Notes under the pieces: generated by a model
Database searches by the model: none
Seen by the model: only the letters and a program-made list of their open reading frames with translations
What the model was told of the DNA's origin: nothing
Position numbers and translations under genes: made by a program
Part shown: positions 2,430 to 19,841 of the stretch, piece after piece
Position numbering within the stretch: the first letter of the stretch is position 1
How the letters are laid out: each line of letters opens with the position of its first letter
From: a virus
DNA length: 20,021 bases
IMG/VR virus record: IMGVR_UViG_3300020169_000927
Span: 1 to 20,021 of that record
Reading direction: 5' to 3' (one strand)

Positions 2430-2662
2430 TGTTTACTGTTGAGATGGAAGAAGACGAAACTCTAATTACAGTAATGGATACATCCGATCAATTTGAAGAT
2501 CTATCAGTATTACTGTATGACGATTATTGCCATATAAGACAATGGAGTGAAGAGGAAGATGACTTTATCGTTCTCACCATGACTTCCGAAATGTACTATA
2601 AACTAATGAAGTCTTGGACTCAAGCAAGTGGTGCATATGTCATAGACAAGAGAGTAGTATGA
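2429..2662 (+). CDS. Hypothetical acidic protein
   Basis: This 77-residue protein is coupled at both ends: its ATG shares a base with the upstream TAA, and its TGA overlaps the next ATG. The N-terminal part is strongly acidic (VEMEEDETLI, SEEEDDF) with alternating hydrophobic residues suggesting short beta strands, followed by an amphipathic segment MYYKLMKSW. It has no signal, membrane span or recognised motif. It lies between two nucleotide-metabolism enzymes. Confidence 0.6.
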   Translation: MFTVEMEEDETLITVMDTSDQFEDLSVLLYDDYCHIRQWSEEEDDFIVLTMTSEMYYKLMKSWTQASGAYVIDKRVV

Positions 2663-3072
2663 AAGTAGGTTTTACTTGCAGTGCCTTTGATCTGCTTCAC
2701 GCAGGACACGTACAAATGCTGCGTGAAGCTAAAGATCAATGTGAATATTTGATATGTGGTCTTCAGATAGATCCTAGTCACGATAGACCAGATAAGAATG
2801 CGCCTATTCAAACAATTGTTGAACGCTACGCTCAGCTCAATGCTGTTAAGTATGTTGATGAGATCATTCCATATCAAACAGAAGGTGATCTAGAAGACAT
2901 ATTGAATATGTTAGATATTGATGTAAGAGTTATAGGTGAAGAATATAAAGATGGTAAGTTCACAGGTAGAGCCACTTGTGCTAAACGTGGGATTGAGCTA
3001 TACTTTAATAAAAGAGATCACAGATTTAGTTCTAGCGATTTACGCAAAAGAGTTTGCAAAAATACAAATTAG
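2659..3072 (+). CDS. Cytidylyltransferase-like nucleotidyltransferase
   Basis: I place the start at ATG 2659, in a 4-base ATGA overlap with the previous gene; a longer frame from 2614 only adds residues read from that gene. The 137-residue protein has the nucleotidyltransferase signature FDLLHAGHV at 10-18 (the HxGH motif that binds CTP or ATP phosphates) and RFSSSDLRKR at 122-131, equivalent to the family's C-terminal S-x-LR-R motif. Length and the central VDEIIPY and IDVRVIGEEY strands fit glycerol-3-phosphate cytidylyltransferase-like enzymes (TagD/RfaE-C type). The substrate could be a sugar phosphate, glycerol phosphate or another alcohol phosphate. No partner gene in the window fixes the pathway. 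A strong promoter for the next gene begins 4 bases after the stop. Confidence 0.75.
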   Translation: MKVGFTCSAFDLLHAGHVQMLREAKDQCEYLICGLQIDPSHDRPDKNAPIQTIVERYAQLNAVKYVDEIIPYQTEGDLEDILNMLDIDVRVIGEEYKDGKFTGRATCAKRGIELYFNKRDHRFSSSDLRKRVCKNTN

Positions 3073-7259: not shown

Positions 7260-7289
7260 GCCGGGCCAAAGGTTAGCCTGGCTTTTTTT
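7260..7289 (+). terminator. Rho-independent terminator
   Basis: A 7-bp GC-rich stem (7260-7266 with 7276-7282, one G-U pair), a 9-base loop and seven Ts (7283-7289). It ends the barrel-protein transcript immediately before the late promoter of the curli region. Confidence 0.85.
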
Positions 7290-7293
7290 ATGT

Positions 7294-7301
7294 TATAAAT
7301 A
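7294..7301 (+). promoter_or_regulatory. T4-type late promoter octamer for the curli-like operon
   Basis: An exact TATAAATA preceded by TGT lies between the terminator at 7260 and the first gene at 7320, with no good -35 box. The expected start (about 7307) leaves a very short leader that still contains the AAGGAG ribosome site at 7308-7313. It would place the membrane proteins, csgF, csgG and the first curlin under late control. Confidence 0.55.
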
Positions 7302-7319
7302 GGGCCGAAGGAGCATACA

Positions 7320-7598
7320 ATGGACTTTTTGACCCTAGTGGGAGATGTTGGATTTCCAATTGCAGGAGCACTTGCTGCTGGTGTATTTGTTTTTATAACA
7401 TTGAAGTTTATTCTAGCAAGTGTGACAGCTTCGGTTAACACTCTAAAGAATATAATTGGATCATTAGATAACAGAGTCCAGACTATGAACAACGACTTGG
7501 TAAAGATAGATGCTTTGCTTAGTTACGCATTAAATGTAAAACCGAATATAGATCGGATTGCAGCTAATGAAGGTAAGGAAGACGCAAGGAGAGATTAG
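7320..7598 (+). CDS. Single-pass membrane protein, GFPI type (first of pair)
   Basis: A 92-residue protein with a perfect AAGGAG ribosome site. The N-terminus reads VGDVGFPIAGALAAGVFVFI, leading into one transmembrane segment (about 9-33), followed by a heptad-like helical region (VTASVNTLKNIIGSLDNRV, then TMNNDLVKIDALLSYAL) that could form a coiled coil, and a charged end. The GFPI-membrane-coiled coil layout recalls small phage and Gram-positive membrane proteins of the YvrJ/BhlA type, sometimes called holins. The next gene encodes a similar protein, so the two may form a heteromer. Position directly before csgF and csgG suggests either a late lysis role or an inner-membrane component of the curli export route. 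Confidence 0.6.
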   Translation: MDFLTLVGDVGFPIAGALAAGVFVFITLKFILASVTASVNTLKNIIGSLDNRVQTMNNDLVKIDALLSYALNVKPNIDRIAANEGKEDARRD

Positions 7599-7957
7599 TG
7601 GATTTAGATATCGCAAAAGCAATAAGTGACTATGGCTTCCCAATTGTGGGTGCTATTGGTATGGGATATTTTATCTACTTTATTTGGAAATGGGTGACAG
7701 AAGAAATTGATCCAATATTGGGTCAAACAATGGGTACGTTAATCAAACTGGTTGATCGTATTCGCATGCTTGATAATGATATGATAAGGTTAAACAGTAA
7801 GCTATCGATGGTTCTCGAACATAGAGGTATGGACGACGAAGTTGCTAAGCTACAAAGTAAAAGTGAATCATTCAACTCAACAGGTCAAGCAGATGATAAA
7901 CCAGAACAACCTAAGCCTGAGCCTAATTCTTTTGGTGTTACTCCCAACACAAAGTAA
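7598..7957 (+). CDS. Single-pass membrane protein, GFPI type (second of pair)
   Basis: Translation starts at GTG 7598, sharing a base with the upstream TAG and preceded by AGGAG at 7587-7591. The 119-residue product is a paralogue in layout of the previous one: ISDYGFPIVGAIGMGYFIYF leads into one membrane span (about 12-33), then comes a helical segment (LIKLVDRIRMLDNDMIRLNS) and a long hydrophilic Pro/Gln/Glu-rich tail (DDKPEQPKPEPNS). The shared D-x-GFPI-x-GA core and the LDND/MNND motif in the helix indicate common ancestry. The last 65 bases also encode the csgF signal peptide in another frame, so the tail composition is partly constrained by csgF. Function unknown. Confidence 0.6.
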   Translation: MDLDIAKAISDYGFPIVGAIGMGYFIYFIWKWVTEEIDPILGQTMGTLIKLVDRIRMLDNDMIRLNSKLSMVLEHRGMDDEVAKLQSKSESFNSTGQADDKPEQPKPEPNSFGVTPNTK

Positions 7958-8363
7958 TGCTGAATTAGGATTTAGTTTTAAGAACCCATCCTTTAGTGGT
8001 AATGGGTATTCTAGTCATGTCTTGAGTGTAGAGCAACTTCAGCATAATAGAATAGAAGATCGTAAAGATGAAGCTGAGGCCGAAGCTAGACGGATCGAAA
8101 GAGAGTTGGAGAATACTACTCTCAATAAATTTATTAAAAACTTAGAATCAAGAATCTATGCTACACTCAGTAAGCAGATGGTTGATTCTATGTTTGCTTC
8201 CTGTACAGGCGAGACGTGTCCAACAACAGGTACTACAGAGATTGAAGGTAGTACAATAGAGTGGACTAAAGATCTGGTAACAGAAGAAATAACATTAACT
8301 ATTACAAATGCTGATGGAACCACAACCATAACAATACCAGGCGCAGGGGAGTTTGCATTTTAA
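7893..8363 (+). CDS. csgF: CsgF-like curli assembly protein
   Basis: I place the start at ATG 7893, inside the upstream gene, because it gives a normal signal peptide (NLSLSLILLVLLPTQSNA) with cleavage before ELGFSFKNPSFSGN. That mature N-terminus is the CsgF hallmark (E. coli has a closely similar FQFRNPNFGGN) and is the part that plugs into the CsgG pore. Then come a charged helix (about 50-72), LNKFIKNLESRIYATLSKQMV (77-97; E. coli FTQAIQSQILGGLL region), and C-terminal strands IEWTKDLV and LTITNADGTTTITIPG (E. coli TDRKTGQTSTIQVSG). At 156 residues it is slightly longer than E. coli CsgF (138). A Cys pair (C104, C109) may form a disulfide. The stop overlaps the csgG ATG. The Shine-Dalgarno is weak, suggesting translational coupling. 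Confidence 0.88.
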   Translation: MINQNNLSLSLILLVLLPTQSNAELGFSFKNPSFSGNGYSSHVLSVEQLQHNRIEDRKDEAEAEARRIERELENTTLNKFIKNLESRIYATLSKQMVDSMFASCTGETCPTTGTTEIEGSTIEWTKDLVTEEITLTITNADGTTTITIPGAGEFAF

Positions 8364-9163
8364 TGAGATACTTTTTGATAACGCTTTTGATGCTGGCTGG
8401 TTGTGTAGATCCAAATCAAATGGCTCCTATGAATGCTAAACCAATGGTGCAGTCTTCACCCAATGACATATTCAACTATAAGCAGTTGGATGGTAAGAAG
8501 ATGACAATTGCTGTATATGGTTTCACTGATAAGACAGGTCAAAGAAAACCTAGTATGACCACTTCAAACCTTAGTAGCGCGGTAACGCAGGGCGCTGAGG
8601 TGTGGGTAATAAAGGCTCTGCAGGATGTTGGGGCGTGTACCTGGTTTGAGGTAGTTGAAAGAGTAGGTTTAGATAATCTAGTTAAAGAAAGACAATTGGT
8701 TAGAAATACCAGAGAAATATATGAAAAGAAATTGGCTAAAGGTCCTACACCTTTAAAGCCTATGGTATTTGCAGGTTTAATATTAGAAGGTGGAATAGTA
8801 GGATACGACTCAAGTGTTGTAACAGGCGGGACAGGCGCTAGGTATTTGGGCATTGGTGCTCAGATGGATTACAGAGTCGATACAGTGACAATAGTTATGC
8901 GGTTAGTAAGTGTCAGTACAGGTAAAGTATTACTGAGTGTTGCCACAGAAAAGACCATCGCGAGTCATAGGAGTGGAGCAGATGTGTTTAAGTTTTTAGA
9001 CATGGGCACCAAACTCATAGAAGCGGAAACTGGCTACAGTATGAATGAGCCAGTTAATTATGCAGTTAGATCAGCAATTGAAGCTGGCGTTATTGAATTG
9101 ATTAATGAAGGAGAATCAAAACAATTCTGGACATTCTTAGAAGATCCTAAGAATGGCGGATAA
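8363..9163 (+). CDS. csgG: CsgG-like curli secretion channel lipoprotein
   Basis: The 266-residue protein aligns through its length with E. coli CsgG (277), the nonameric outer-membrane pore that exports curli subunits. Landmarks are a lipobox LAGC with lipidated Cys 14, MTIAVYGFTDKTGQRKP at 47-63, VVERVGLDNLVKERQLVR at 97-114, LEGGIVGYDSSVVTGGTGAR at 141-160 with YLGIGAQMDY after it, VSVSTGKVLLSVATEKTI at 182-199, ETGYSMNEP at 222-230 and SAIEAGVIELINEG at 237-250. At the pore constriction, E. coli Tyr51-Asn55-Phe56 corresponds to Ser/Met, Asn 69 and Leu 70, so the Asn is kept while both aromatic rings are missing. It is coupled to csgF and lies 11 bases before the first curlin gene. No CsgE adaptor gene is seen. 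Confidence 0.95.
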   Translation: MRYFLITLLMLAGCVDPNQMAPMNAKPMVQSSPNDIFNYKQLDGKKMTIAVYGFTDKTGQRKPSMTTSNLSSAVTQGAEVWVIKALQDVGACTWFEVVERVGLDNLVKERQLVRNTREIYEKKLAKGPTPLKPMVFAGLILEGGIVGYDSSVVTGGTGARYLGIGAQMDYRVDTVTIVMRLVSVSTGKVLLSVATEKTIASHRSGADVFKFLDMGTKLIEAETGYSMNEPVNYAVRSAIEAGVIELINEGESKQFWTFLEDPKNGG

Positions 9164-9174
9164 AGGAAAGTACA

Positions 9175-9906
9175 ATGAAAAATCTTAATAGATATATCAT
9201 TATGGGCGCGTTGTGTTCAGTAACACCTGTTACAACAATAGCTAACGACATCTACATTCAACAAGTGGGTGATACACTAGACTTGGACATCGTACAAGAT
9301 GGACAAGATAACAGTATTGGAACATCACCTGGTATGGGCAATCAAGATATGGTCTTAGGTTCAGCTGGCAATGCATCTGACAACATGACATTTAGTATTA
9401 CTCAAACGGGTAATCAGAACAAAATCACTGCTCAAATATTAGGTAGCACCTACACCGGTACTTGGACATTCACTGGTGATAATAATGAAGTTGATTTACT
9501 TTGTTCTAGCACTTCAGCAGCTAACTGTGGTAACGTGACTTTAAACATTGCCGCTACTGGTGATAATCAAGATTACACAATCAACATTGGTGAAACAACA
9601 GATGCAGGTTCTGCTACTATTAACTTCACTGTAACAGATGATGATAATATTATCGCTACAGATGTAAATGGCACAAGTGCTGATATCACAGTTGTTATTG
9701 ATGGAAGCACTAGCTTAGAAACAATTGATAGTACATTGGATATTGATGTATCAGGTAATGGTGACATCAACGGACACACAATTAACTTTGATGCTACAGG
9801 TAGAGGTCATACAATTAAGTTTGATCAAAGCGGTGTGTATGACAACACAATTGACTTAACAACAAGTGGTGATAATCAAAATATCAACATCACACAATCT
9901 GACTAG
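9175..9906 (+). CDS. Curlin-like secreted repeat protein 1 (divergent)
   Basis: The 243-residue precursor starts with AGGAAAGTACA upstream of the ATG and has a signal peptide (YIIMGALCSVTPVTTIA) with likely cleavage before NDIYIQQVGD. The mature protein is rich in Asn, Asp, Thr and Gly with very few Lys or Arg. Q-x-G motifs of curlin repeats occur at 30-32, 41-43, 77-79 and 218-220, and related T-G-D-N segments at about 100, 128 and 231 have lost the Gln. The mature N-terminus closely matches that of the second curlin-like protein (NEVYVRQVGD). It follows csgG by 11 bases, so it is an expected CsgG substrate: a nucleator (CsgB role), minor subunit or specialised fibre protein. Two Cys residues (C110, C118) could form a disulfide. 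The repeat fold is inferred. Confidence 0.8.
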   Translation: MKNLNRYIIMGALCSVTPVTTIANDIYIQQVGDTLDLDIVQDGQDNSIGTSPGMGNQDMVLGSAGNASDNMTFSITQTGNQNKITAQILGSTYTGTWTFTGDNNEVDLLCSSTSAANCGNVTLNIAATGDNQDYTINIGETTDAGSATINFTVTDDDNIIATDVNGTSADITVVIDGSTSLETIDSTLDIDVSGNGDINGHTINFDATGRGHTIKFDQSGVYDNTIDLTTSGDNQNINITQSD

Positions 9907-9934
9907 TTGACCTTTTTCAACTTTGTGGTATAAT
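9907..9934 (+). promoter_or_regulatory. Sigma70-like promoter
   Basis: TTGACC at 9907-9912 begins right after the first curlin stop, and TATAAT lies at 9929-9934 (spacer 16). It would give the FecR, second curlin and cyclase genes their own, host-polymerase-driven transcript, independent of the late promoter at 7294. Confidence 0.75.
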
Positions 9935-9961
9935 AAGGTGCCAGCCTTAGTGAGGGGCAGT

Positions 9962-11089
9962 ATGTTTAGAAGTTTATTAATTTTCTTAATGACAGCTTCA
10001 CCGGTCTTCGCAAACATCGGTGAAGTTTCTACTGTCAGGGGAAGTGGTAGTGGCGCGATTGAACGAGGCAATGATGCCATCGATGCTAAAAAGGGCGTTG
10101 GTGTTGAAATGCTTGATACAGCAGTCACTGCTAACTCCTCTATGCGTATTGACTTCATAGATGATACGAGAGTAGATATTACTGAACATTCACGGTTAGT
10201 TATAGATGACTTTGTGTATGATCCAAACACTGGTACAGGTTCATTGGGGCTTAAAGCTAGTCTGGGTACTGTAAGATATGCGTCTGGTCAGATAGCAAAG
10301 AATAGTAGACAACGAGTTAGAATAAGAACACCATCTGCAACTATTGGTGTACGTGGTACAGACTTTGTTATGGTTATAGACGAAGCTGGCGGAAGTATGA
10401 TAACTCTATTACCAAGTTGTGATACAGCTGGTATGTGTTATACAGGAGAGATAACAGTAGAGACAGATGCAGGGTTTGTTATTCTTAATCAAGCCTTCCA
10501 AGCAACCATTGCTTCAAATTCAATGTCTCCTCCCACAAAACCTTTACTATTAGACTTAGACGAATCAATGATAAACTCATTGTTGATACTACGCAAAAAG
10601 AATCCTTATTATGTAGAAGAAGCTCAAATAATAAAGAGGAAGCAGGCAGACGCAGATTTTCTTGGATTAGACTTTTTACAATACGAAGGTCTTGATTATG
10701 ATGCACTAGTTGACTCTATCGAAGGCATATGGATTACAGCGTTGGAAGAAACGGATCAGATGCTCCAGAATTTATTATATGATATGTTAGATCAACTTAA
10801 CAAAGCGTTGATGAGATTGTTTCAAGATGAACTGTCAATACAGAACTCTTTTTTATTATCAGAAGAAGCAAAGGTATATGGATATAATCCTATGACAGGT
10901 CTTACACTACTAAATGAAACTCCTAATTGGGTATTCTCGCGGAGAGATGATAATGAAGGAAACTTTGTGCAGTTAAGATTAAATCAGGGATATGGTTATA
11001 CTATAGACCTCAAACAGGGAGACTGGGAGTTATATGACTATAGGTTGGGCGAAAGCACTAATAATAGCATCAACATTATCCAGCAGTAA
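9962..11089 (+). CDS. Secreted FecR-domain protein
   Basis: I choose ATG 9962, which has GAGGGG just upstream and lies after the promoter; the frame opens earlier, but ATG 9923 overlaps the -10 region. The 375-residue precursor has a signal peptide (FRSLLIFLMTASPVFA) and then a FecR domain: GEVSTVRGSGSGAIERG, a central SMRIDFIDDTRVDITEHS strand pair, and RVRIRTPSATIGVRGTDFV, the hallmark TP-x-A-T-x-x-V-RGT-x-F motif, at about 120-138. Classical FecR has a cytoplasmic anti-sigma part before this domain; here only the periplasmic part is present, so sigma regulation is unlikely. The C-terminal 190 residues are mainly helical and not recognised. The gene overlaps the curlin gene by 56 bases and is in one operon with the CHASE2 cyclase. 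FecR-domain proteins often neighbour CHASE2 cyclases in bacteria, suggesting one sensing unit. Confidence 0.8.
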   Translation: MFRSLLIFLMTASPVFANIGEVSTVRGSGSGAIERGNDAIDAKKGVGVEMLDTAVTANSSMRIDFIDDTRVDITEHSRLVIDDFVYDPNTGTGSLGLKASLGTVRYASGQIAKNSRQRVRIRTPSATIGVRGTDFVMVIDEAGGSMITLLPSCDTAGMCYTGEITVETDAGFVILNQAFQATIASNSMSPPTKPLLLDLDESMINSLLILRKKNPYYVEEAQIIKRKQADADFLGLDFLQYEGLDYDALVDSIEGIWITALEETDQMLQNLLYDMLDQLNKALMRLFQDELSIQNSFLLSEEAKVYGYNPMTGLTLLNETPNWVFSRRDDNEGNFVQLRLNQGYGYTIDLKQGDWELYDYRLGESTNNSINIIQQ

Positions 11090-11888
11090 CTGTTGGGCAA
11101 ATGAGGTTTATGTGAGGCAAGTCGGCGATAATACAGACATGACTATCACTCAAGATGGTGCTAACAATAAGATAACTGGTTTGGGTGGAAATTCGAGTAA
11201 AGCTCAAGTAAGTGGTAATAACACAAGCACTACATATACACAAACAGGTGACACTAATCAAGTGCGTGTATGGATGAGTTCTGGTAATGGAATAAACAAT
11301 GTCTCGCAAACAGGCGATAACAACTCAGCAAGATTAGATTGCCATGGTAATAATTGTGTTATTGATATTGAACAAAATGGCAATTCTAATTATGCAAATT
11401 CCGAACTAGGTAATGGTGGTGATTATGATCAAACTATTATTATTGATCAAGATGGTAATTATAACTTTGCAAAAGTAGAAGCAAACGGTGATGACAATAC
11501 TATTACTGTAGACCAAGATGGTAACAATCATATAGTACATGGGTACGGTAACACACCAATAACTGGTGATAGAAATAACATTACACTTGTACAAGATGGA
11601 TCACAATACAATCAAGCTCAGGCGAAGGTTGTTGGAAATGATAACACAATAGATGGATATCAAGGTGGACAATATAACTTTGGTAGACTGGTACTAACAG
11701 GTGACGACCATGATGTGACGAGTTCACAGGAAGGTACTGGATCTCATAGTATGACTTTAGACCTTACTAATGGTGGTGGGGCGTATACTGTAAATACAAT
11801 ACAAAACAGTTCAAATAGCCAAACATATTCAATGACAGGAACATGCACCAATTCAAGTGGATGTGGAATAACAGTAACACAATATTGA
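11034..11888 (+). CDS. Curlin-like secreted repeat protein 2 (major amyloid candidate)
   Basis: ATG 11034 has GGGAG at 11025-11029 and gives a signal peptide (KALIIASTLSSSNCWA) cut before NEVYVRQVGD; the start lies inside the FecR gene in another frame. The 284-residue precursor has ten Q-x-G motifs (Q at 29, 40, 70, 92, 114, 139, 161, 187, 210, 232), most spaced 22-26 residues, each followed by N or D and preceded by a beta-prone strand (TITVDQDGNN, IIIDQDGNYN). This is the curlin strand-loop-strand pattern known from CsgA and CsgB, which stack as a beta-solenoid amyloid. It is about twice the size of CsgA (131 residues mature) and very acidic. It ends GITVTQY, which could be a capping strand. 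Expected to leave the cell through the CsgG-like pore encoded upstream. Fibre formation is inferred. Confidence 0.85.
   Translation: MTIGWAKALIIASTLSSSNCWANEVYVRQVGDNTDMTITQDGANNKITGLGGNSSKAQVSGNNTSTTYTQTGDTNQVRVWMSSGNGINNVSQTGDNNSARLDCHGNNCVIDIEQNGNSNYANSELGNGGDYDQTIIIDQDGNYNFAKVEANGDDNTITVDQDGNNHIVHGYGNTPITGDRNNITLVQDGSQYNQAQAKVVGNDNTIDGYQGGQYNFGRLVLTGDDHDVTSSQEGTGSHSMTLDLTNGGGAYTVNTIQNSSNSQTYSMTGTCTNSSGCGITVTQY
11118..11735 (+). repeat. Tandem curlin repeats within the second curlin gene
   Basis: This stretch encodes residues 29-234 with the ten Q-x-G units. Units are diverged at the DNA level, with recurring words such as CAAGATGG and CAAACAGG for QDG and QTG, so the array is old rather than a recent duplication. 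Confidence 0.75.
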
Positions 11889-11895
11889 GGATATA

Positions 11896-13932
11896 ATGAA
11901 AAGATTATTAAGCCCATGGTGGGCACTACTCACACTAGCAGCTTTAACATATATGTTTGCTACTCCATCTAACTTTATTCAAAGTGTTAAATTAAATTAC
12001 TTTGATACTCTTATTGTTAATCAAGAGCCTGTTGAGAATAACATATACGTTGCAGAGATAGATGAAGCAGCATTAGAGAAGTATGGTCAATATCCTTTTC
12101 CGAGAGACATATATGGTGATATTATCAGAGACATATACGATCGTGGTGCTGGATTAGTTGTATGGAATATAATGATGCCAGAACCAGATCGTTTTGGTGG
12201 TGATGCTGTTTTAGGTAATGTGTTATATGACTATCCAGTTGTAGTAGCAACAAGACCATCACATAAGAGTGTTAATGAAGCTATCAATCCTGGGGCTGCT
12301 ATTATCAATCCAGAATACTTAGATATGCTATTACCATATGATGGAATTATAGCCAACATATCTGACATTGAATTTAATGCAGTAGGATCTGGTATAGTAA
12401 GCACAGAACCAGAAATAGATGGTGTAGTTAGAAGGATGCCTACTGTAGCTGTAGTAGACGGCACGTTATACCCGTCTCTGGCGCTAGAAACCCTAAGAGT
12501 AGTGGCTGGTGATATATCTTTTCAAATTAAACTACAACCCAATGGTGTAGAGAAAATGAGAATACCTCAGTTTGGTATTATCCCAACAGATAATGAAGGA
12601 CGTGTATGGATTGATTGGTCACAGAAATCTAAGAATGTATCTGTAGCAAACATGCCAGATGACTTTGCTGGAGCGGTTGTTATAGTAGATGTGACTGCAG
12701 CAGGTATTGCTAACCCAGCACCTACTGCCATTGGATCAGTCTTTGCTGGACAGACTCAAGCGGCTGTTCTTGGAACAATGTTTGCTGGTACTAATATACA
12801 AAGACCAGATTGGGCAAGTGCTATAGAATTATTATCATTGGTTGTTGGTAGTTTACTGTTGATCATTTTAAGCAGATGGATGATTGTGGGTCTAATCACA
12901 ACAGTAGCTCTTATTGGATCTATAGTACCGTATTCAATGTATGCGTATGCTACAGATAAGTTTCTTTTAGATGTTACTGCTCCTACTATCACATTTGTGA
13001 TCATAGCGCTACAAGTATACGGTATAAAGTTTGTTAGAGAGTTCTTAGAGAAGCAAGCAATCAAGAAACAATTTGCTGGTTATGCATCAGCAGAAGTTGT
13101 AGAGATATTACAGAAGAATCCAAAATTAATTAAAGAAGGTCAGAAGAAAGAGGTATCCATTGTATTCTCAGACCTTAGAGGTTTCACCCCATTGGGTGAA
13201 TCGTTCGGAGATGATGTTAAAGGCTTGACAACAGTGATGAACAATTATATGGATGCAATAACAAAACCTGTGCTAGATGCAGATGGAATGATTATTAAAT
13301 ATATTGGTGATGCATCAATGCACATACACAACGCTCCAATCAATGATCCGCAACATCCTAAGACAGCGGTTCAGGTTGGACTCAACATGCTAAAAGCAGT
13401 GGAGAAATTTAATGAAAAACTTATGGAACAAGGTAAACCGAAAGTTGGTATGGGTGCCGGTATTAATACTGGCCTTGGTTATGTTGGAGAGATGGGTTCT
13501 AATGCCCGCCACTCCTATGATATCCTCGGAGACAGTGTCAGTACAGCCGCTAGACTCGAAAGCGCCTGTAAAGGATACGGAGTAGTCTTAATTGTAGGAC
13601 CTGCAACTTATGATGCTACAGAGAACGACTTCTTTTATTTGAAGTTGGACGATTTGGCAGTTAAGGGTAAGTCTATAGGACTAGAAATTTATACAGTCCT
13701 AGATATTGAAAGGTCCAAGCATGGCGTGTCCATGCTTGACCACAACACAATGCATAACTTTTATAGAACACAACACTTTGATCAAGCTATTGTTATCTGC
13801 GAACAACTAAAAGGCTGCTTTGAAGGTAAGATGGATGAATACTATGATATATGGATTGATCGTTGTGAGTATATGAAGAAACAAGATTTGTCTTACGATT
13901 GGGATGGAATCTTTAGAGCAACCTCAAAATAG
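11896..13932 (+). CDS. CHASE2-domain class III adenylate cyclase
   Basis: The 678-residue protein has an N-terminal membrane segment (about 7-23), an extracytoplasmic CHASE2 domain (about 30-300; note VAEIDEAALEKYGQYPFPR and EPEIDGVVRRMP), three membrane spans (about 309-378), and a cytoplasmic class III cyclase domain (about 415-600). Visible catalytic residues: metal-binding D426 in VFSDLRGF and D472 in KYIGDA, purine-selecting K468 and D542 (the Lys/Asp pair typical of ATP use), and transition-state R553 in AARLES. The usual transition-state Asn is replaced by Ser 549 (GDSVSTAAR). The C-terminal tail (YRTQHFDQA through WDGIF) is the standard ending of bacterial CHASE2 cyclases, so the gene looks complete. 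GAGGATATA gives a ribosome site. Predicted role: sense an extracytoplasmic cue, perhaps through the FecR-domain protein, and change host cAMP. Activity depends on tolerance of Ser 549. Confidence 0.92.
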   Translation: MKRLLSPWWALLTLAALTYMFATPSNFIQSVKLNYFDTLIVNQEPVENNIYVAEIDEAALEKYGQYPFPRDIYGDIIRDIYDRGAGLVVWNIMMPEPDRFGGDAVLGNVLYDYPVVVATRPSHKSVNEAINPGAAIINPEYLDMLLPYDGIIANISDIEFNAVGSGIVSTEPEIDGVVRRMPTVAVVDGTLYPSLALETLRVVAGDISFQIKLQPNGVEKMRIPQFGIIPTDNEGRVWIDWSQKSKNVSVANMPDDFAGAVVIVDVTAAGIANPAPTAIGSVFAGQTQAAVLGTMFAGTNIQRPDWASAIELLSLVVGSLLLIILSRWMIVGLITTVALIGSIVPYSMYAYATDKFLLDVTAPTITFVIIALQVYGIKFVREFLEKQAIKKQFAGYASAEVVEILQKNPKLIKEGQKKEVSIVFSDLRGFTPLGESFGDDVKGLTTVMNNYMDAITKPVLDADGMIIKYIGDASMHIHNAPINDPQHPKTAVQVGLNMLKAVEKFNEKLMEQGKPKVGMGAGINTGLGYVGEMGSNARHSYDILGDSVSTAARLESACKGYGVVLIVGPATYDATENDFFYLKLDDLAVKGKSIGLEIYTVLDIERSKHGVSMLDHNTMHNFYRTQHFDQAIVICEQLKGCFEGKMDEYYDIWIDRCEYMKKQDLSYDWDGIFRATSK

Positions 13933-13935
13933 ATT

Positions 13936-14646
13936 TTAAAAATTTGTTATCTGTACATGCTTTTCAAATGACGGGAAGGACCATAAGTCATCAAGGTTTC
14001 CCTTACGGTGACTTTCTATTAGTATATCTCTGTTTAAGACATCTGGATGTGTTTTTCTGTCCATATTAGAATTTGGATAACCGATCCCAACAATACACTT
14101 TGCAAATGTGTTTTTAATACCTAACACATCATCTTCTCTAAATGCAGAACAACAGCCTGTTCTATATCCTAATAAATTGGCCGTAAGTAATAATTGACCT
14201 ATAGCTATTCCTGTACCAATATCAATTATTCTATTTTTAACTATATGGGTATACAGATCCTCTTTATAGGTCTCATCATCAACAATCAGGTGAGTTCTTG
14301 CTCTGGCTTTAGATTGATCCCAATCATCACAGAAAGCTATTATTAAATTTGCATTTAGCTGAGAATTGGTTACACAGTATTCATCTGGAGTATCTCCATT
14401 ACTACTTATAGGAACACTATCATCAGCTACAGAGAAGTATTTTGTTCTGCTATAAACTTCCTCTATTTTAGACTGGTTAGAAGACCAATATATTTTGTAA
14501 TTAGTTTCATTCTGTTTTGTAGGTGCATATCGAATAGAGGAGAGCATCAAATCAATGTCTTCTTGTGGAATGTTTATATCACGTTTCCAGTTTCTTTGAC
14601 ATGGATTAGTGTTTTTTATAGCTGAGAGAAGCTCATCTTTATCCAT
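13936..14646 (-). CDS. Nitroreductase-family FMN oxidoreductase
   Basis: A 236-residue protein read leftward from an ATG preceded by AGAGGAA. It fits the nitroreductase fold: QRNWKRDINIPQEDIDLML at 17-35 (FMN phosphate-binding Arg region), SSIRYAPTKQNETNYKIYW at 36-54 (the APS-x-N-x-QP loop), DIGTGIAIGQLLLTANLLGY at 142-161 (central helix followed by the GCCSAF segment), and CIVGIGYPN near 184-192. Members reduce nitro groups, quinones or flavins, or act as dehydrogenases in biosynthesis. It ends 3 bases from the convergent cyclase gene without a terminator hairpin, and starts divergently from the short SDR gene across a 157-base AT-rich gap. The substrate is unknown; the neighbouring oxygenases suggest a place in the same redox pathway. 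Confidence 0.75.
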   Translation of the reverse strand: MDKDELLSAIKNTNPCQRNWKRDINIPQEDIDLMLSSIRYAPTKQNETNYKIYWSSNQSKIEEVYSRTKYFSVADDSVPISSNGDTPDEYCVTNSQLNANLIIAFCDDWDQSKARARTHLIVDDETYKEDLYTHIVKNRIIDIGTGIAIGQLLLTANLLGYRTGCCSAFREDDVLGIKNTFAKCIVGIGYPNSNMDRKTHPDVLNRDILIESHRKGNLDDLWSFPSFEKHVQITNF

Positions 14647-14738
14647 TATATTCCTCTTTATTTAACTTATTTAGTGTATCTTTTATGTTACACTTTAGCG
14701 TTATTTTAAAATTAATTGTAAAAAAAGCAAATTAGTTG

Positions 14739-14767
14739 TTTACATCTATATCTATATGTGTTATATT
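14739..14767 (+). promoter_or_regulatory. Extended -10 sigma70-like promoter
   Basis: TTTACA at 14739-14744 and TATATT at 14762-14767, spacer 17, with TGT directly before the -10 (extended -10). It starts the two-gene SDR and AspH-like transcript, and excludes the longer SDR reading frame from ATG 14756, which would begin upstream of the transcript start. Confidence 0.65.
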
Positions 14768-14803
14768 AGTTATAGAAACAACAACAAAGTAAAGATTTAC
14801 ATA

Positions 14804-15226
14804 ATGGAATTTTATATTACCGGTACTAGACGAGGCTTAGGTAAAGCTCTTGTTGACAAGTACGGAAACGTAAATACATTAGATGAATGTGATGTGTTTA
14901 TTAACTGTAAGCACAATGGCTTTGAGCAAGTAGAAATGCTATACAAAGCAGCTAAGTTAGACAAACGAATCATTAACATTGGATCTCACGCAAGTGATTT
15001 TACTTACCTACACGAATATGCTGTAGAGAAGAGAGCATTACGTGAAGCAAATGCTATGATGTTTATAAAAGGTATAAAGACTACTTGTCTTAACTTTGGA
15101 TATATAGACACAGAGAGATCAGCTCATAAAGAAGTTGAGAAGATGTCTATAGATTATATAATAGAGGTTATAGAATGGGTACTACTACAACCACACTCAG
15201 TCAAGGAACTAACAATATCAGCATAG
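14804..15226 (+). CDS. Very short SDR-like oxidoreductase
   Basis: The start is ATG 14804, the first one downstream of the promoter, giving 140 residues. The protein opens with a Rossmann NAD(P) motif, FYITGTRRGLGKAL at 3-16 (TGxxxGLG). It retains the other SDR landmarks in compressed form: DVFINCKHNG at about 30-39, an active-site Ser in INIGSHAS at about 57-64, Y-x-x-x-K in YAVEKRAL at about 73-80, and CLNFGYIDTE at about 95-104 (the PG-x-I-x-T segment). Normal SDRs are about 250 residues; here several helices between these motifs are missing, yet the frame is intact. It may be a minimal active reductase, or a binding protein that kept only the cofactor core. It is co-transcribed with the AspH-like gene. 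Confidence 0.7.
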   Translation: MEFYITGTRRGLGKALVDKYGNVNTLDECDVFINCKHNGFEQVEMLYKAAKLDKRIINIGSHASDFTYLHEYAVEKRALREANAMMFIKGIKTTCLNFGYIDTERSAHKEVEKMSIDYIIEVIEWVLLQPHSVKELTISA

Positions 15227-15654
15227 ACATTGATCATATACTATTAGAGATATCCAGTCTTCCTGAATATAACGAACAGCTATCGTTACAGATATCTTCT
15301 CAAGGAGCGTCTGCAGAAGGTAGGTTTAATAACCTATCATCTAGTGAAAAGGATTTTAATCATTTTGCTTATGATCTACCATATACCAACTCTGTTATAA
15401 GCTCTCTAGGAATGTATCGCACTCGTCTAATGAAGATGACAGAAAAGACATGCTATACCTATCATTGGGATCCATCTAAGAGAATGCATATACCTTTAGT
15501 TACCAACGACGATTGTTTCTTTGTTATAGAGGATCAGGTCAGTAGATATCCAGCAGATGGTTCTCACTACTTAGTAGACACAACTAAGAAACACACATTT
15601 GTTAATGCTTCTAGGTTTGAGCGGATTCACATTGTGGGTTGCGTAGATAGTTAA
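15175..15654 (+). CDS. Aspartyl/asparaginyl beta-hydroxylase-like oxygenase
   Basis: ATG 15175 lies within the end of the SDR gene (52-base overlap) and has GAGG 7 bases upstream. The 159-residue protein matches the AspH-like double-stranded beta-helix: YHWDPSKRMHIPLVTND at 96-112 (R103, H105, the R-x-H-x-P motif), and KKHTFVNASRFERIHIVG at 138-155 (distal H140, 2-oxoglutarate-binding Arg at 147 or 150). This family hydroxylates peptides or small molecules with Fe(II) and 2-oxoglutarate, and often uses two His ligands without the carboxylate. The N-terminal 60 residues are not recognised. Its end overlaps the convergent gene by 44 bases. Substrate unknown. Confidence 0.7.
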   Translation: MGTTTTTLSQGTNNISIDIDHILLEISSLPEYNEQLSLQISSQGASAEGRFNNLSSSEKDFNHFAYDLPYTNSVISSLGMYRTRLMKMTEKTCYTYHWDPSKRMHIPLVTNDDCFFVIEDQVSRYPADGSHYLVDTTKKHTFVNASRFERIHIVGCVDS

Positions 15655-16165
15655 TATCACCTTTATAAAACACATACTGTAGATTGTTTGCTTTCTTTAA
15701 AGGTGGGCTTCCTATCTGTAGCTTATCTGGATACACATTCCATTCTTTAAATATATCAGGGCGGGCTCTTTTTAGTTTAGTAAAGAAACCTTTACTGAAT
15801 TCACGTGTCCAAATTATAAGAGGTACATTAAGATTATCTACACAATAGGTAAGCTCTTTAAAATCATCCACCTTTTCAAACATAGATGTTCCATCTGTTC
15901 TAAAGTCTTTGTAATGATAATACCTGGACATGACTCTTACTACTCCAGGATATATATTCTCACATCCAGAGCATAACACAGGTTTGTTATTATCAAATAC
16001 AAAGTTAAACATTACCATTCTATCTAAGTTTAGATTTGAAAAAGAGTAGTTATCTGATAATCTATCGGTGTCTTTTTCTATTTGTAGTTGTAGAAAAGCA
16101 TCGTTACACAAGTCAGTTTCTTCATAAGTAATTTTCGAGTCTTTTATATAAGAAACTATTCTCAC
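15611..16165 (-). CDS. Hypothetical protein, last gene of leftward oxygenase operon
   Basis: A 184-residue protein that I do not confidently recognise. It starts in an ATGA overlap with the upstream oxygenase gene and ends inside the convergent AspH-like gene. Features: a central strand MVMFNFVFDNNKPVLCSGC, then GVVRVMSRYYHYKDFRTDG, which weakly recalls the acetyl-CoA motif strand and loop of GNAT acyltransferases, then VPLIIWTREFSKGFFTKLK and a C-terminal LQYVFYKGDINYL. There is no signal or membrane segment. Strict coupling to the operon suggests a part in the same pathway, possibly as an acyl- or amino-group transferase, but that is a guess. Confidence 0.6.
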   Translation of the reverse strand: MRIVSYIKDSKITYEETDLCNDAFLQLQIEKDTDRLSDNYSFSNLNLDRMVMFNFVFDNNKPVLCSGCENIYPGVVRVMSRYYHYKDFRTDGTSMFEKVDDFKELTYCVDNLNVPLIIWTREFSKGFFTKLKRARPDIFKEWNVYPDKLQIGSPPLKKANNLQYVFYKGDINYLRNPQCESAQT

Positions 16166-16827
16166 AGAATTGATTCAACTCTATCTTTAAACGAATGGAA
16201 GTCAATAGCAGGTATGTTATTCCATCTTGTGACAAAGGCACATCTAGGAGCCTCTGTAATAATTACTCTATGCATTATCTCTGTATCAATAAGACAAGGC
16301 TTATCAATAATAATCTCACCAATCTTACGATCAGCTAAAAACTTTTCAAACTCTGGTGTACCTTGACCCATTTGACTTTGCGCTTTAAATTCGTGGTAAT
16401 AGTAATACCCCTGAGCGTTCTTTTCAGGTAGGCATATCTCATCTTCTAATGTTTCAAAATAATCTAAACGACTCGCTCCAAGTACTGGATATATGATATT
16501 GTATCCTTGGCTGTGTTCTCTATTCTGATCTATATCAGTATGAGGGAATACATCTTTCTCTGTACTATCAGCAGTATTAAATCCAGTTGATCTAAACTGA
16601 TAATGTGGATGTACTTTTCTATGTTGAGATAAGATAGGATCATATATAGCTTCATAGCCAGTGTCTTCACCTGTCATATTAAACTCTAATGAATAACTTT
16701 CGAATGGTGTCTTACCAAAAACATTAAAGTCCTCTCCAGCTCTCGCACCTTTTACTTTTTCATATAGATCGAGTAACAGTTCGTGTTGAGGATCAACGTC
16801 TACATATTCTGCAATGCCTGGTATCAT
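16162..16827 (-). CDS. 2OG-Fe(II) oxygenase-like protein
   Basis: A 221-residue protein coupled at both ends by ATGA overlaps. The iron-binding pattern of 2-oxoglutarate oxygenases is visible: FPHTDIDQN at 94-102 (H96-x-D98), then a strand YNIIYPVLGASRLDYFE at 109-125, and PCLIDTEIMHRVII at 177-190 with distal H186, followed by Arg 195 for 2-oxoglutarate. Spacing of about 90 residues between the first His and the distal His fits the prolyl-hydroxylase/PhyH-like fold. Such enzymes hydroxylate or otherwise oxidise peptides, nucleobases or small molecules. Marine T4-like phages often carry several. Its neighbours here are redox and transfer enzymes rather than DNA genes. Confidence 0.7.
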   Translation of the reverse strand: MIPGIAEYVDVDPQHELLLDLYEKVKGARAGEDFNVFGKTPFESYSLEFNMTGEDTGYEAIYDPILSQHRKVHPHYQFRSTGFNTADSTEKDVFPHTDIDQNREHSQGYNIIYPVLGASRLDYFETLEDEICLPEKNAQGYYYYHEFKAQSQMGQGTPEFEKFLADRKIGEIIIDKPCLIDTEIMHRVIITEAPRCAFVTRWNNIPAIDFHSFKDRVESIL

Positions 16828-17228
16828 AATACACCTTCAATAAATGGATCATCATATTCTTTTACGAACACACCATCTTCTATAAGCATAGCATATCGTT
16901 TACATCTGATACCCATATAATCACCAAAGTCAACATCTTTACCAATGTACTTACTAAACACTGCTAACGGATCTGCTACTGCGTCAATATCAGGATGACC
17001 ATGTAGTACATTCCATTCATGCATAACACTTGGATCATTAACAGCAACAAATACTACCTTAGCATCTAGCTTATCTAAATTCTTTGCAAAGCCTGGTAGA
17101 TGTCTTTTAGTACATCCTGGAGTAAAAGCTCCTGGTACTCCACATAGTATAACTTTACCTTGTGGTAATGTATAAGGTACATAGTCATCATCTTTAAGTA
17201 TGTATAGCCCTTTAGTGTCTAATCCCAT
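16824..17228 (-). CDS. Peroxiredoxin, Prx5-like
   Basis: A 134-residue thioredoxin-fold peroxidase. The peroxidatic site reads VPGAFTPGCTKRHLPGF at 31-47 with Cys 39, the PGAFTP-x-C-x-x-HLPG signature of the Prx5 subfamily. VFVAVNDPSVMHEW at 59-72 and RCKRYAMLIEDG at 108-119 are the other conserved strands (the first usually followed by W). It is slightly shorter than typical Prx5 (about 160), lacking part of the C-terminus. No clear resolving Cys is seen, so it may be a 1-Cys enzyme. It removes hydroperoxides, which would fit a pathway with several oxygenases and a flavin reductase. ATG 17228 overlaps the upstream gene by 10 bases. Confidence 0.85.
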   Translation of the reverse strand: MGLDTKGLYILKDDDYVPYTLPQGKVILCGVPGAFTPGCTKRHLPGFAKNLDKLDAKVVFVAVNDPSVMHEWNVLHGHPDIDAVADPLAVFSKYIGKDVDFGDYMGIRCKRYAMLIEDGVFVKEYDDPFIEGVL

Positions 17229-17803
17229 TTCTCATTCCAATCATTATATTCATTTTTAAAATAATCTTTATTGTCTGATTTATATAGTAGATAGTTGTTT
17301 ATCTTATCAGACATCTCAATAAAGTGTTCTTGGTTATCTGGTATAACATGCTTCCAACCATATGTAGATACGTCTGTATGTATTACATTAGCACCCAACT
17401 TCTTAAATATATCTTTAGTCTGAGCCATGTGTCTACTACCACCCTCTTTACCACTAGGAGTAAACGTAAGAAGTATTACATGCTTATTAGACCAAGGATA
17501 TCCTTTGCCATGCTCTAAGTTCATATTTGATATTACTACAGCCCAGTCTAGTAGGTTCTTTGTACTTGAACTCATCATACCAGTAAACTCTGGTATTGCA
17601 AATACAAACTTATCAAACTGATACATCATATCAAATACAGCAGTAACATCTTCAGGTATATCTGCATCCATACCATTAACATTTACCACAGGTATATCAT
17701 AGTCAGCCAAGCAATCTATTCTGTCAAACTCACAACTTAATAGCTGTAGCCCTCTATAATTAATACTGTTAGGTGCTTGTGATGTACTCAGTGCTAATAT
17801 CAT
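17219..17803 (-). CDS. NADPH-dependent FMN reductase-like flavodoxin-fold protein
   Basis: A 194-residue protein with the flavodoxin-like FMN reductase layout: LALSTSQAPNSINYRGLQLL at 3-22 (phosphate-binding loop, S-x-x-S-x-N-x), FDKFVFAIPEFTGMMSSSTK at 63-82 followed by NLLDW (the P-x-Y/F-x-G-x-x-x-x-x-K-N-x-x-D motif that holds the isoalloxazine ring), and NKHVILLTFTPSGKEGGSRH at 105-124. These enzymes supply reduced flavin or reduce quinones. It follows the AspH-methyltransferase gene with an ATGA overlap and precedes the peroxiredoxin. A role as electron supplier for pathway enzymes is plausible. Confidence 0.8.
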   Translation of the reverse strand: MILALSTSQAPNSINYRGLQLLSCEFDRIDCLADYDIPVVNVNGMDADIPEDVTAVFDMMYQFDKFVFAIPEFTGMMSSSTKNLLDWAVVISNMNLEHGKGYPWSNKHVILLTFTPSGKEGGSRHMAQTKDIFKKLGANVIHTDVSTYGWKHVIPDNQEHFIEMSDKINNYLLYKSDNKDYFKNEYNDWNEKWD

Positions 17804-19026
17804 AATGTTACATCCGCCACTAATCTGCGACCCGCAAATATTTCAAGGTCAAGTTTATATTCTTTAAATTCTTTATACATGTTTTTATATTCTTCCATAT
17901 CGTCTGATATTCTATTTAAAATCAAACCAGCTTTCCAATGACGTTGCCATGGCATAGGTTCTTGAATGATAGCATTAGGGCTTTTATATATACCACTAGT
18001 AATCTTATGAAAAAACTCAAAATGATCATCAGGTCTGTATAACAATACACCGCTCCACATAACTTGATCTACATCAAAGTCAACAAGGAAAGCTTCTAAG
18101 TTATTCCAAGACTCGTGTCTAAATTCTATATTATTATAATCTTTCCACTTCTCTGTTGCTATATCAATAGGCTCCTTAGATGTATCAAACCCCATATACT
18201 CAAAATCAGTATAACCTTTTGAGTGTAATATATCTAATACAGGTCCATGTCTACAGCCAACATCAACGATACCTTTACATTGTTTTTCTATAATAATATT
18301 TGCTTGAGTTTCAAATAGCTCATATGCTTCTGGTGAATCGAGATAAGCCATATCACTAAATTCATAATCTTCCTTTAGAGGTACCTTCTGACCGTTGTCT
18401 ATTTTTGTTTTAATTTCTGGCCACGGTACATTCTCACTCGGTTGGTTCCAAAAGTCGTGATCAACATCAAATAGATCATCAACGTCCAGATAACAGTTTA
18501 ATGCTCTGCGAGGTATATTAGTCGGGTCATTTAATGTATAAACACCATGAGCTTGAGTGTTATTATTAAACATTACTATGTCACCTGGGCCATATATACA
18601 ATGTTCATATTCACCCGTCTCATTATTTTTTACATAGAGGTGTACATCATTTTCCATAGCTATGTTAACAGTAATAGGAGGTCTACCAAATTTACTAGGG
18701 TCATCTTCAAATACTACTTTATCCCATTCTGATATTCCAGTCACGTGTGCATTTGATAGTGTATCTACATGCTCTAACAGCTCAGTAGTCTGACATCTCC
18801 AATCCCACATCCAGCCTTTTTTCTTTATAGGGTATCCTATACCTCTTTCAATTGCTTCTTGCAAATGTTTGGGGAAGTTTTCTTCAGAGATATTGTGATA
18901 CCAAATCCCCAGTGGGTTAGGATGTTCAATATGTTCTTCATACACTTCTAGTGGAAACAGTTCATCAAGCTCTCTTACAAACTCTCTCCAATCATAATCT
19001 AGTTTAAATTTTCTAATAACGCTCAT
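17800..19026 (-). CDS. AspH/cupin-like oxygenase domain fused to SAM methyltransferase
   Basis: I start at ATG 19026, in an ATGA overlap with the aminotransferase gene; the frame extends 10 codons further into that gene. The 408-residue protein has two parts. Residues about 1-185 look like an AspH/cupin beta-helix: RPPITVNIAMENDVHLYV at 115-132, GPGDIVMFNNNTQAHGVY at 146-163 (His 160) and RRALNCYLDV at 173-182; a first His at the R-x-H-x-P position is not evident. Residues about 215-408 form a class I methyltransferase with motif I IVDVGCRHGPVLDIL at 243-257, an acidic MGFDTS at 268-273 and VMWSGVLLY at 302-310. The fusion suggests consecutive modification of one substrate, possibly one held by the cupin-like domain. 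The substrate is unknown. Confidence 0.7.
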   Translation of the reverse strand: MSVIRKFKLDYDWREFVRELDELFPLEVYEEHIEHPNPLGIWYHNISEENFPKHLQEAIERGIGYPIKKKGWMWDWRCQTTELLEHVDTLSNAHVTGISEWDKVVFEDDPSKFGRPPITVNIAMENDVHLYVKNNETGEYEHCIYGPGDIVMFNNNTQAHGVYTLNDPTNIPRRALNCYLDVDDLFDVDHDFWNQPSENVPWPEIKTKIDNGQKVPLKEDYEFSDMAYLDSPEAYELFETQANIIIEKQCKGIVDVGCRHGPVLDILHSKGYTDFEYMGFDTSKEPIDIATEKWKDYNNIEFRHESWNNLEAFLVDFDVDQVMWSGVLLYRPDDHFEFFHKITSGIYKSPNAIIQEPMPWQRHWKAGLILNRISDDMEEYKNMYKEFKEYKLDLEIFAGRRLVADVTL

Positions 19027-19841
19027 GTCATATCTTTGAATAAAGGTGTTAGACATATACGAGCAACATCACCTGCTCGCCTTCGCCTTGTGTAGTATCT
19101 ATCTTTGGTTGTAGCCAAGTAAAATACATCTGAAGGAGTAAACTCATATTCTTTACAAATATCTAATTGCATCTTTCTATACCTATTAAACATGCTATCC
19201 ACAGCAAAGTTATTCATTATTAATTGCATGGTTCTAACACCACCATAGTTCCAGTTTTCATATTCTTTTAATCTATGTAATGTAGGATGTGGCTCTTTTG
19301 TATACACTAAGCCTAATCTTTGCCCAATCAATCCAAAACCTTTAGAGAAAGAAAAGAACACTTGCTCTGTTCGTTCAGGAACATTAATAGTCTTCATGGC
19401 CGTTGAACTAACATATGTGCAATCAAGTATGACAGGTGATTGAGCATGAGAATAAATTATATTTCCATCAGCTGCTGCTGGGTTAGAAAGATATAGAGGT
19501 TGACCTAAAACTTTTGTACCCTTTCCACCAATCATATTAGCATATTCATATTCACCTTCAGGTAGCTGCCATTTTCTATCTTCGGTAAGTACCCAATGAT
19601 GTATAGCATCAGTAACACCGTGAGTATAATAACAGTATGGGAACTCTGATAAGTCAATCATACTGCTTACCCAATGCCTATGAGTAGCCTCAACATGATT
19701 TAATTCATCAGTTGCTTCTCCTGAACCCCTACTGAAATATGTGTCCGATACTTTCTGAGTCTGTAGTAGCGTTTCTACATCTCTAATACGAGGTACATTT
19801 ACATATGGAAAGTTTCTTAGTTCAGCTTTTCGAGTAGTCAC
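19023..19841 (-). CDS. Compact PLP-dependent aminotransferase-like protein
   Basis: Translation begins at GTG 19841 with GGAG upstream. The 272-residue protein keeps the core of fold-type I aminotransferases: YYTHGVTDAIHHW at 71-83 (cofactor phosphate-binding turn), ILDCTYVSSTAMK at 138-150 (the Asp contacting the pyridine N), VFFSFSKGFGLIGQRLGLVY at 161-180 with the Schiff-base Lys 167 and Arg 175, and RICLTPLF at 261-268 (end of the small domain, carboxylate-binding Arg). It is about 100 residues shorter than usual, mainly lacking parts of the C-terminal domain, but the frame is intact. It could transaminate an amino acid or act as a PLP lyase. It is coupled to the methyltransferase fusion downstream. 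Confidence 0.75.
   Translation of the reverse strand: MTTRKAELRNFPYVNVPRIRDVETLLQTQKVSDTYFSRGSGEATDELNHVEATHRHWVSSMIDLSEFPYCYYTHGVTDAIHHWVLTEDRKWQLPEGEYEYANMIGGKGTKVLGQPLYLSNPAAADGNIIYSHAQSPVILDCTYVSSTAMKTINVPERTEQVFFSFSKGFGLIGQRLGLVYTKEPHPTLHRLKEYENWNYGGVRTMQLIMNNFAVDSMFNRYRKMQLDICKEYEFTPSDVFYLATTKDRYYTRRRRAGDVARICLTPLFKDMT

Follow-up and report, generated by a model that had tools for sequence, protein, structure and literature searches.

A curli-type export module of a T4-like phage lineage with a putative late promoter and a FecR-domain protein that ends in curlin-like strands

Why would a phage carry genes for a curli-type secretion system together with its own amyloid-type substrates and a pair of signalling proteins? 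This question is raised by IMG/VR virus record IMGVR_UViG_3300020169_000927, a marine phage fragment whose entire 20,021-bp sequence is the window analysed here. On its plus strand, at positions 7,320 to 13,932, lie eight genes in the order M1, M2, CsgF, CsgG, Cur1, FecR, Cur2 and a CHASE2 adenylate cyclase. Neighbours in this series mostly overlap or nearly abut: the widest gap is the 55 nucleotides between Cur1 and FecR, the CsgF start codon (ATG at 7,893) lies inside M2, and Cur2 overlaps the 3′ end of fecR by 56 nucleotides. Matches to the Pfam families CsgF, CsgG, FecR, Curlin_rpt and CHASE2 confirm the genes that a first-pass annotation of the window had named on one strand at this place. 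We lean, with modest confidence, towards the reading that the module provides for the late export of amyloid-like fibres, and that this export is monitored by a sensor composed of FecR, CHASE2 and cyclic AMP (cAMP).

The module itself is not new, because three papers describe such clusters and the phages HTVC008M (KC465899) and Melnitz (MZ577097) share its CsgF-to-cyclase core order, with M1 homologues in addition. In the parts of these papers that were available, Zaragoza-Solas 2020 (PMC7029224) describes CsgF/CsgG clusters in pelagimyophages and suggests ‘sibling capture’, Buchholz 2022 (PMC9004378) proposes a pore that times lysis, and Wittmers 2022 (PMC9599517) presents the complete module, including curlins, FecR and adenylate cyclase, in podo- and myophages and detects virus-encoded curli proteins at every one of 65 ocean stations. 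The function of such operons is described as unclear in these papers. The pelagiphage type VIII secretion system (T8SS) module of Wittmers 2022, as far as the available text goes, has the same order as the window (small gene or genes, CsgF, CsgG, CsgA/B, FecR, CsgA/B, adenylate cyclase) and is likewise without CsgC, CsgD or CsgE. The first-pass view that own substrates plus a signalling pair take the set beyond what was known is therefore not supported. The CsgG protein of the window shares 49–51% identity with its counterparts in HTVC008M and Melnitz, which come nearest among the 12 phage-collection records that match it, and a megablast search of the window against this collection, with both phages included, returned no DNA match. 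The two phages differ from the window in promoter placement. What is added here is the presence of M1/M2 in the slot labelled ‘histidine kinase’, a late promoter octamer, a curlin-like end of the FecR protein and a five-gene operon in Hyphomonas. The words ‘promoter’, ‘late gene’ and ‘C-terminal’ occur nowhere in the main text of Wittmers 2022, and neither a curlin-like FecR tail nor a late promoter ahead of this operon turned up in the accessible portions of the open-access literature.

The octamer TATAAATA, which we take to be the T4 late promoter, stands ahead of M1 at positions 7,294 to 7,301 of the plus strand. Three copies are present in the window where 2.96 are expected by chance, so significance from the window alone was rejected, and the promoter was accepted after a test across loci. 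M1/M2 are placed either ahead of the operon or 3′ of the cyclase on the opposite strand. In distinct collinear loci, TATAAATA is found within 120 nucleotides upstream of M1 in 23 of 36 cases, given a background of 0.0103 per 120 nucleotides. Over the same distance it precedes M2 in 0/46, CsgG in 0/41, CsgF in 7/41, FecR in 1/35, Cur1 in 1/39 and Cur2 and the cyclase in 1/31 each. Because the octamer recurs before M1 at this rate against a background of about 1%, the curli module looks like a late operon in the collinear class, and the T4-type late promoter that had been noticed before the module stands. Fold prediction also places a terminator-like hairpin with a 7-bp stem and a T-run at 7,260 to 7,289 (plus strand; minimum free energy −12.7, z −1.0), and 32 of 200 shuffled sequences fold equally well.

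The FecR-domain protein (9,962 to 11,089, plus strand, Pfam E value 1.7e-9, with ATG 9,962 as the best start in an open reading frame (ORF) that opens with TTG at 9,923) ends in curlin-like strands. Its C-terminal residues 305–374 are modelled as seven short strands; the predicted template modelling score (pTM) of the whole model is 0.53, and the mean predicted local distance difference test score (pLDDT) is 69 in block 301–310 and 83–91 from residue 311 onward. Residues I370, I372 and Q374 are at least 90% conserved over 54 sequences. When complete proteins of at least 100 amino acids were counted, with identical ones taken once and the remaining rows related, such that counts are not independent, a terminal strand-Q motif was present in 64/68 FecR, 63/66 Cur1 and 62/75 Cur2 proteins. 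Other proteins of the module have it in 1/84 (CsgG), 0/77 (CsgF), 3/81 (cyclases) and 0/75 (M1/M2) cases, and other phage ORFs in 17 of 1,582 (at least 100 amino acids) or 5 of 878 (at least 150). The motif is found in 51 of 54 aligned FecR rows, whereas shuffling of the final 45 residues gives an expectation of 2.67. Its units are spaced mostly 21–22 and 10 residues apart in FecR, and 11, 23 and 27 residues apart in Cur1.

The remainder of this protein resembles a signalling domain. PF04773 is matched by 11/11 FecR proteins of the first alignment, with every other Pfam hit confined to a single member at an E value of 0.11 or worse, and model residues 49–208 align with the PupR signalling domain 6ovk_R (Z 15.1, root-mean-square deviation 2.5, 135 residues aligned). 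The FecR of the fec operon has a cytoplasmic anti-sigma part and a membrane helix. Ahead of the FecR domain in the window, the model has one short helix (residues 2–11), which we read as a probable signal peptide; because nothing else precedes the domain, we read the protein as a likely secreted one and not as an anti-sigma regulator. A hydropathy scan, which is insensitive and misses the M2 segment too, found no hydrophobic window in FecR.

The substrates of the system would be the two proteins that flank FecR. Cur2 (11,034 to 11,888, plus strand) has five Curlin_rpt stretches (Pfam E value 7.4e-17). Cur1 (9,175 to 9,906, plus strand), a curlin-like secreted protein, has no Pfam curlin match, and falls with Cur2 in one family built by iterative hidden Markov model (HMM) searches. 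A structural prediction of a curlin beta-solenoid had earlier been set as a test of the locus, and Cur1 is indeed modelled as a beta-solenoid with a pLDDT of 86.4 and a pTM of 0.80. VIA-align ranks SufB/SufD-type folds highest for Cur1 (Z up to 16.3), and CsgA lies outside the 50 top rows; these matches reflect the solenoid shape and not kinship. Many Cur2 proteins have a Cys pair directly before the last strand, and the Cur1 of the window has one in the middle of the protein.

The export genes are the most readily assigned part of the module. CsgF (7,893 to 8,363, plus strand, with its start at the M2 overlap chosen from the sequence) and the outer-membrane pore lipoprotein CsgG (8,363 to 9,163, plus strand) match their Pfam families with E values of 1.8e-15 and 6.5e-51, so that the HMM check proposed for CsgG, CsgF and curlin families came out positive for all three, the last by way of Cur2. 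CsgG matches the solved CsgG structure in the PDB with an E value of 1.4e-71, and its lipobox Cys14 is invariant in 16/16 rows. E. coli curli genes are organised as csgBAC-csgDEFG. The phage module has CsgG, CsgF and curlin repeats in common with that system and adds FecR, the CHASE2 cyclase and M1/M2; CsgE was not found, and CsgC and CsgD were not the subject of a family search. The earlier remark that CsgE is not in view agrees with its detection in 0/14 records searched, among them the window, which is a fragment; in the control search of 14 genomes, E. coli alone matched. CsgE was not found in the four bacterial genomes of that search (G001–G004) either, all of which have CsgG loci, and the adaptor is thus not universal. 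Five phage records of about 350 kb, Brevundimonas phage Kabachok and four related ones, have a distant CsgG-like gene of about 29% identity; in the one such phage that was examined, the annotation shows no curli partner up to 5 kb from this gene. A CsgG-like gene with 42% identity also occurs in OR851715, a 1.5-kb record labelled Salmonella phage that is doubtful as phage sequence.

The last gene of the module (11,896 to 13,932, plus strand) encodes a class III adenylate cyclase with a CHASE2 domain (Pfam CHASE2 2.4e-30, Guanylate_cyc 3.5e-18). Catalysis by class III cyclases presumably depends on two metal-binding Asp residues, a substrate-binding Lys and Asp, and an Arg and Asn for the transition state. 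The metal-binding D426 and D472, along with K468 and R553, are invariant in 12/12 rows, and the substrate-site D542 is present in the window. By eye, the catalytic domains of phage cyclases are of two kinds, a GDAVNLAAR type and a GD-V-STAAR type. Since these kinds do not seem to track the CsgG grouping, domain swapping among the phage cyclases is suggested.

Taken as a mechanism, the late operon would encode a type VIII (curli-type) secretion system with no visible CsgE, in which, by homology, CsgG would be the outer-membrane pore and CsgF would be seated on it. Family membership and the late octamer suggest that, late in infection, the host cell exports Cur1 and Cur2 to its surface. The FecR protein, in the periplasm or at the surface, could use its curlin-like C-terminal strands to dock on the fibre or its curlin subunits, and its FecR domain may then act on the periplasmic CHASE2 domain of the membrane cyclase, such that export or assembly would alter cAMP. 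The precedents from which we infer this signalling, as given in the accessible parts of the sources, are a secreted FecR-domain protein encoded beside a CHASE2 sensor kinase in a biofilm operon of Burkholderia (PMC5192318) and CHASE2 cyclases that respond via an outer-membrane protein (PMC13001267). The Burkholderia operon differs in its histidine kinase output and LysM domain, and no curli genes are mentioned in the available text (PMC5192318). Fibres formed at or just before lysis might hold progeny and neighbouring hosts together, which would be the likeliest benefit and is the least certain step.

A number of observations weigh against this sensor-monitored export of fibres. Melnitz-infected cells did not clump under the culture conditions used, according to the available part of Buchholz 2022 (PMC9004378). 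TATAAATA stands ahead of CsgF and not of M1/M2 in HTVC008M; in Melnitz no copy lies fully inside the 120 nucleotides before M1, where one copy overlaps the start codon; and in the inverted class it occurs at 4/42 M1 sites and 1/24 CsgF sites. Pfam Curlin_rpt is matched by 0/11 FecR proteins, and a position-specific scoring matrix of the phage curlin repeat ranks FecR no higher than other module proteins (median best score −4.2 versus about 31 for curlins). The strict terminal motif is found in only 34/189 and 4/13 bacterial curlins, and is absent from the single bacterial FecR that accompanies a module (1/1). Foldseek gave no significant match of Cur1 to solved structures (best E value 0.26, CsgA fibril 8enq 1.2). 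Finally, the position of the transition-state Asn is Ser549 in the window cyclase, a cyclase match was obtained in only 46/63 scanned sequences, of which many are incomplete, and some loci with long flanks (L047 and L050) have no cyclase behind Cur2.

A bolder form of the same proposal, which we put forward tentatively and consider rather unlikely, would make FecR a hybrid of signalling and curlin-like parts that docks on, nucleates or caps the amyloid and, by way of CHASE2 and the cyclase, reports fibre assembly to the infected cell as cAMP, with a bacterial relative in Hyphomonas sp. TMED17. There, a CsgF-CsgG-curlin-FecR-cyclase operon (L083) lies amid metabolic genes on a 705-kb contig of a metagenome-assembled genome (MAG). 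The best 80 of 308 CsgG loci from a genome scan were taken, and 11 of them (L066–L072, L077, L117, L138 and L142) were excluded because M1/M2, or a close CsgG on a short contig, marked them as phage contigs within MAGs. The MAGs concerned bear labels such as Flavobacteriaceae, Pirellulales, Rhodobacteraceae and Synechococcus, and the phage T8SS contigs in them are probably misbinned. Of the 69 bacterial-looking loci that were left, several end too soon for a FecR or cyclase gene further downstream to be visible, and the Hyphomonas locus is the sole one with both genes in the operon; L082 has a distant cyclase match, which lies about 8 kb ahead of its CsgF and was not counted as an operon part. 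Alphaproteobacterial curli loci (sphingomonads and relatives) likewise have CsgF-CsgG-curlins but, unlike the phage module, M1/M2 occur in none of these 69.

FecR-domain matches are present in 140/385 alphaproteobacterial genomes; among the matches listed, G001 alone is near full length, and the G001 row is itself in the query alignment. In the family of Hyphomonas TMED17, 20/101 genomes have CsgG and 1/101 has a phage-type cyclase (E value at most 1e-60), again G001, the Hyphomonas genome itself, where alignment membership biases the result. In a CsgG tree of 48 rows, 20 ordinary bacterial rows form one clade (support 100/99) and the Hyphomonas row falls on the phage side. Because this placement is weak (93/65) and on a long branch, the tree does not decide which side was the donor.

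An alternative of similarly low probability makes the pore the functional part. On the proposal of Buchholz 2022, CsgG/CsgF would have been turned into a gated channel in the outer membrane that sets the time of lysis, with the curlins as secondary plugs or relics. The late octamer, the lack of CsgE in the records searched and the endolysin encoded 2 kb upstream of the module in the window all agree with such a channel. The constriction loop of the pore may point in the same direction. We take the constriction residues of E. coli CsgG to be Y51, N55 and F56; in the aligned phage consensus, N is retained at one site and the other two, seemingly replaced, have non-aromatic residues, with F at the last site in some phage rows. 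The tie to lysis genes that the first-pass annotation drew from position is weak, and this counts against the lysis-timing channel: among loci with 5 kb on both sides, in two sets that share contigs, only 4/20 and 6/43 have an endolysin no more than 5 kb away from M1/M2. Median ratios of nonsynonymous to synonymous substitution (dN/dS) range from 0.074 to 0.234 over the eight module genes, with Cur2 the least constrained, as calculated from overlapping pairs of 80–99.9% identity and dS of 0.1–1.5 (n = 9 for Cur2 to 104 for M1). All eight genes are under purifying selection, and the curlins and the signalling pair are therefore maintained, beyond the pore alone. These parts are also common, with curlins in 61/63, FecR in 56/63 and the cyclase in 46/63 of the scanned sequences, many of them incomplete.

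The small protein pair M1 and M2 bears on the lysis-timing channel as well. M1 (7,320 to 7,598, plus strand, 92 amino acids) and its paralogue M2 (7,598 to 7,957, plus strand, 119 amino acids) belong to phrog_18771; M1 has a hydrophobic N-terminal segment that is clear in a hydropathy scan, in which the M2 segment stays under the cut-off. Eight of 20 M1/M2 members weakly match the holin family phrog_4898 (best E value 0.0012), as a channel for lysis timing might predict. In the phage collection, M1 is confined to six records (five phages, with HTVC008M present twice), the same six that have a cyclase match over at least 80% of the query. Being limited to these module-bearing records, M1 does not serve these phages as a general holin.

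M1 is a constant partner of the module. M1/M2 were found in 57 of 62 CsgG-found loci (61 plus the window), and the other five are truncated on the side where the pair could be. In a search with M1 that shares contigs with the CsgG-found set, the best 80 of 415 loci were taken, and 76 of these have module genes by an automated rule. Three of the four exceptions (L190, L213 and L217) are on contigs that end within about 1.9 kb of M1, and two of the three still have a cyclase fragment. In the fourth, L161, a CsgG-type lipoprotein signal peptide is fused into a cyclase C-terminal tail (2,437 to 2,817, minus strand), M1 is kept and M2 was not found; the intervening module looks like it was deleted. 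M1 lies between CsgF and CsgG in L042–L046. According to the available part of Wittmers 2022 (PMC9599517), one and sometimes two ‘histidine kinases’ always precede the module. From their position, copy number and short length, these published genes would be M1/M2. The slot has no kinase domain in our sequences: none of 20 M1/M2 proteins matches a kinase family (HisKA/HATPase) at an E value of 1 or less, which rules out histidine kinases. We conclude that M1/M2 are a dedicated pair of the curli module.

Superinfection exclusion usually acts early. The late promoter would thus give poor timing to a barrier in which exported fibres coat the infected cell and hide receptors from rival phages, and we judge this explanation to be more doubtful still, even though surface export is compatible with it and the available part of Wittmers 2022 (PMC9599517) suggests it. 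A pore that takes up nutrients or iron-bound compounds, in which FecR would serve as a regulator for iron, as suggested in the accessible parts of PMC7029224 and PMC9599517, is very improbable, since the absence of an anti-sigma part in Pfam (11 proteins) and the short N-terminal helix make FecR unlikely to act like E. coli FecR, and since two curlins would be left unexplained.

The phage setting agrees with a T4-like lineage, and the claim that curli-type export genes, their own curlin substrates and a signalling pair are carried by such a lineage is supported. The first-pass annotation had looked to phage capsid and tail genes on the same contig. The window’s own sequence has no T4 capsid or sheath match; the T4 Gp23 major capsid family is found in 7/16 phage records, a tail sheath match in 6/16 and a terminase match in 7/16, where the 16 comprise the window, HTVC008M, Melnitz and 13 longer IMG/VR records that carry module genes, and many are fragments. 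The Gp23 of MAG G495, which holds L117, is on contigs not tied to that of L117 and was excluded from the seven. We also considered whether the inverted architecture belongs to a second phage lineage of non-T4 type, as 7/7 inverted records lack Gp23 and sheath matches. This idea was dropped because two of these records, G009 and G011, have genes of UvsX-like, single-strand-binding and virion structural families, to which G009 adds tail tube families.

Phage nucleotide and endolysin families are encoded in the window. Upstream of the module, family searches identify deoxycytidine triphosphate (dCTP) deaminase, deoxyribonucleotidase and cell-wall hydrolase families. The downstream side, at positions 13,936 to 19,841, is taken up by redox and methyltransferase families, with genes for nitroreductase, redoxin, flavin mononucleotide (FMN) reductase and methyltransferase that lie for the most part on the opposite (minus) strand.

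We return to the view that this module would export fibres late and sense their export. The late-expression signal, the corrected gene label and the curlin-tailed FecR protein make earlier speculation on phage curli genes experimentally specific. If the sensor reading is true, these phages would carry a signalling system that reads amyloid export.

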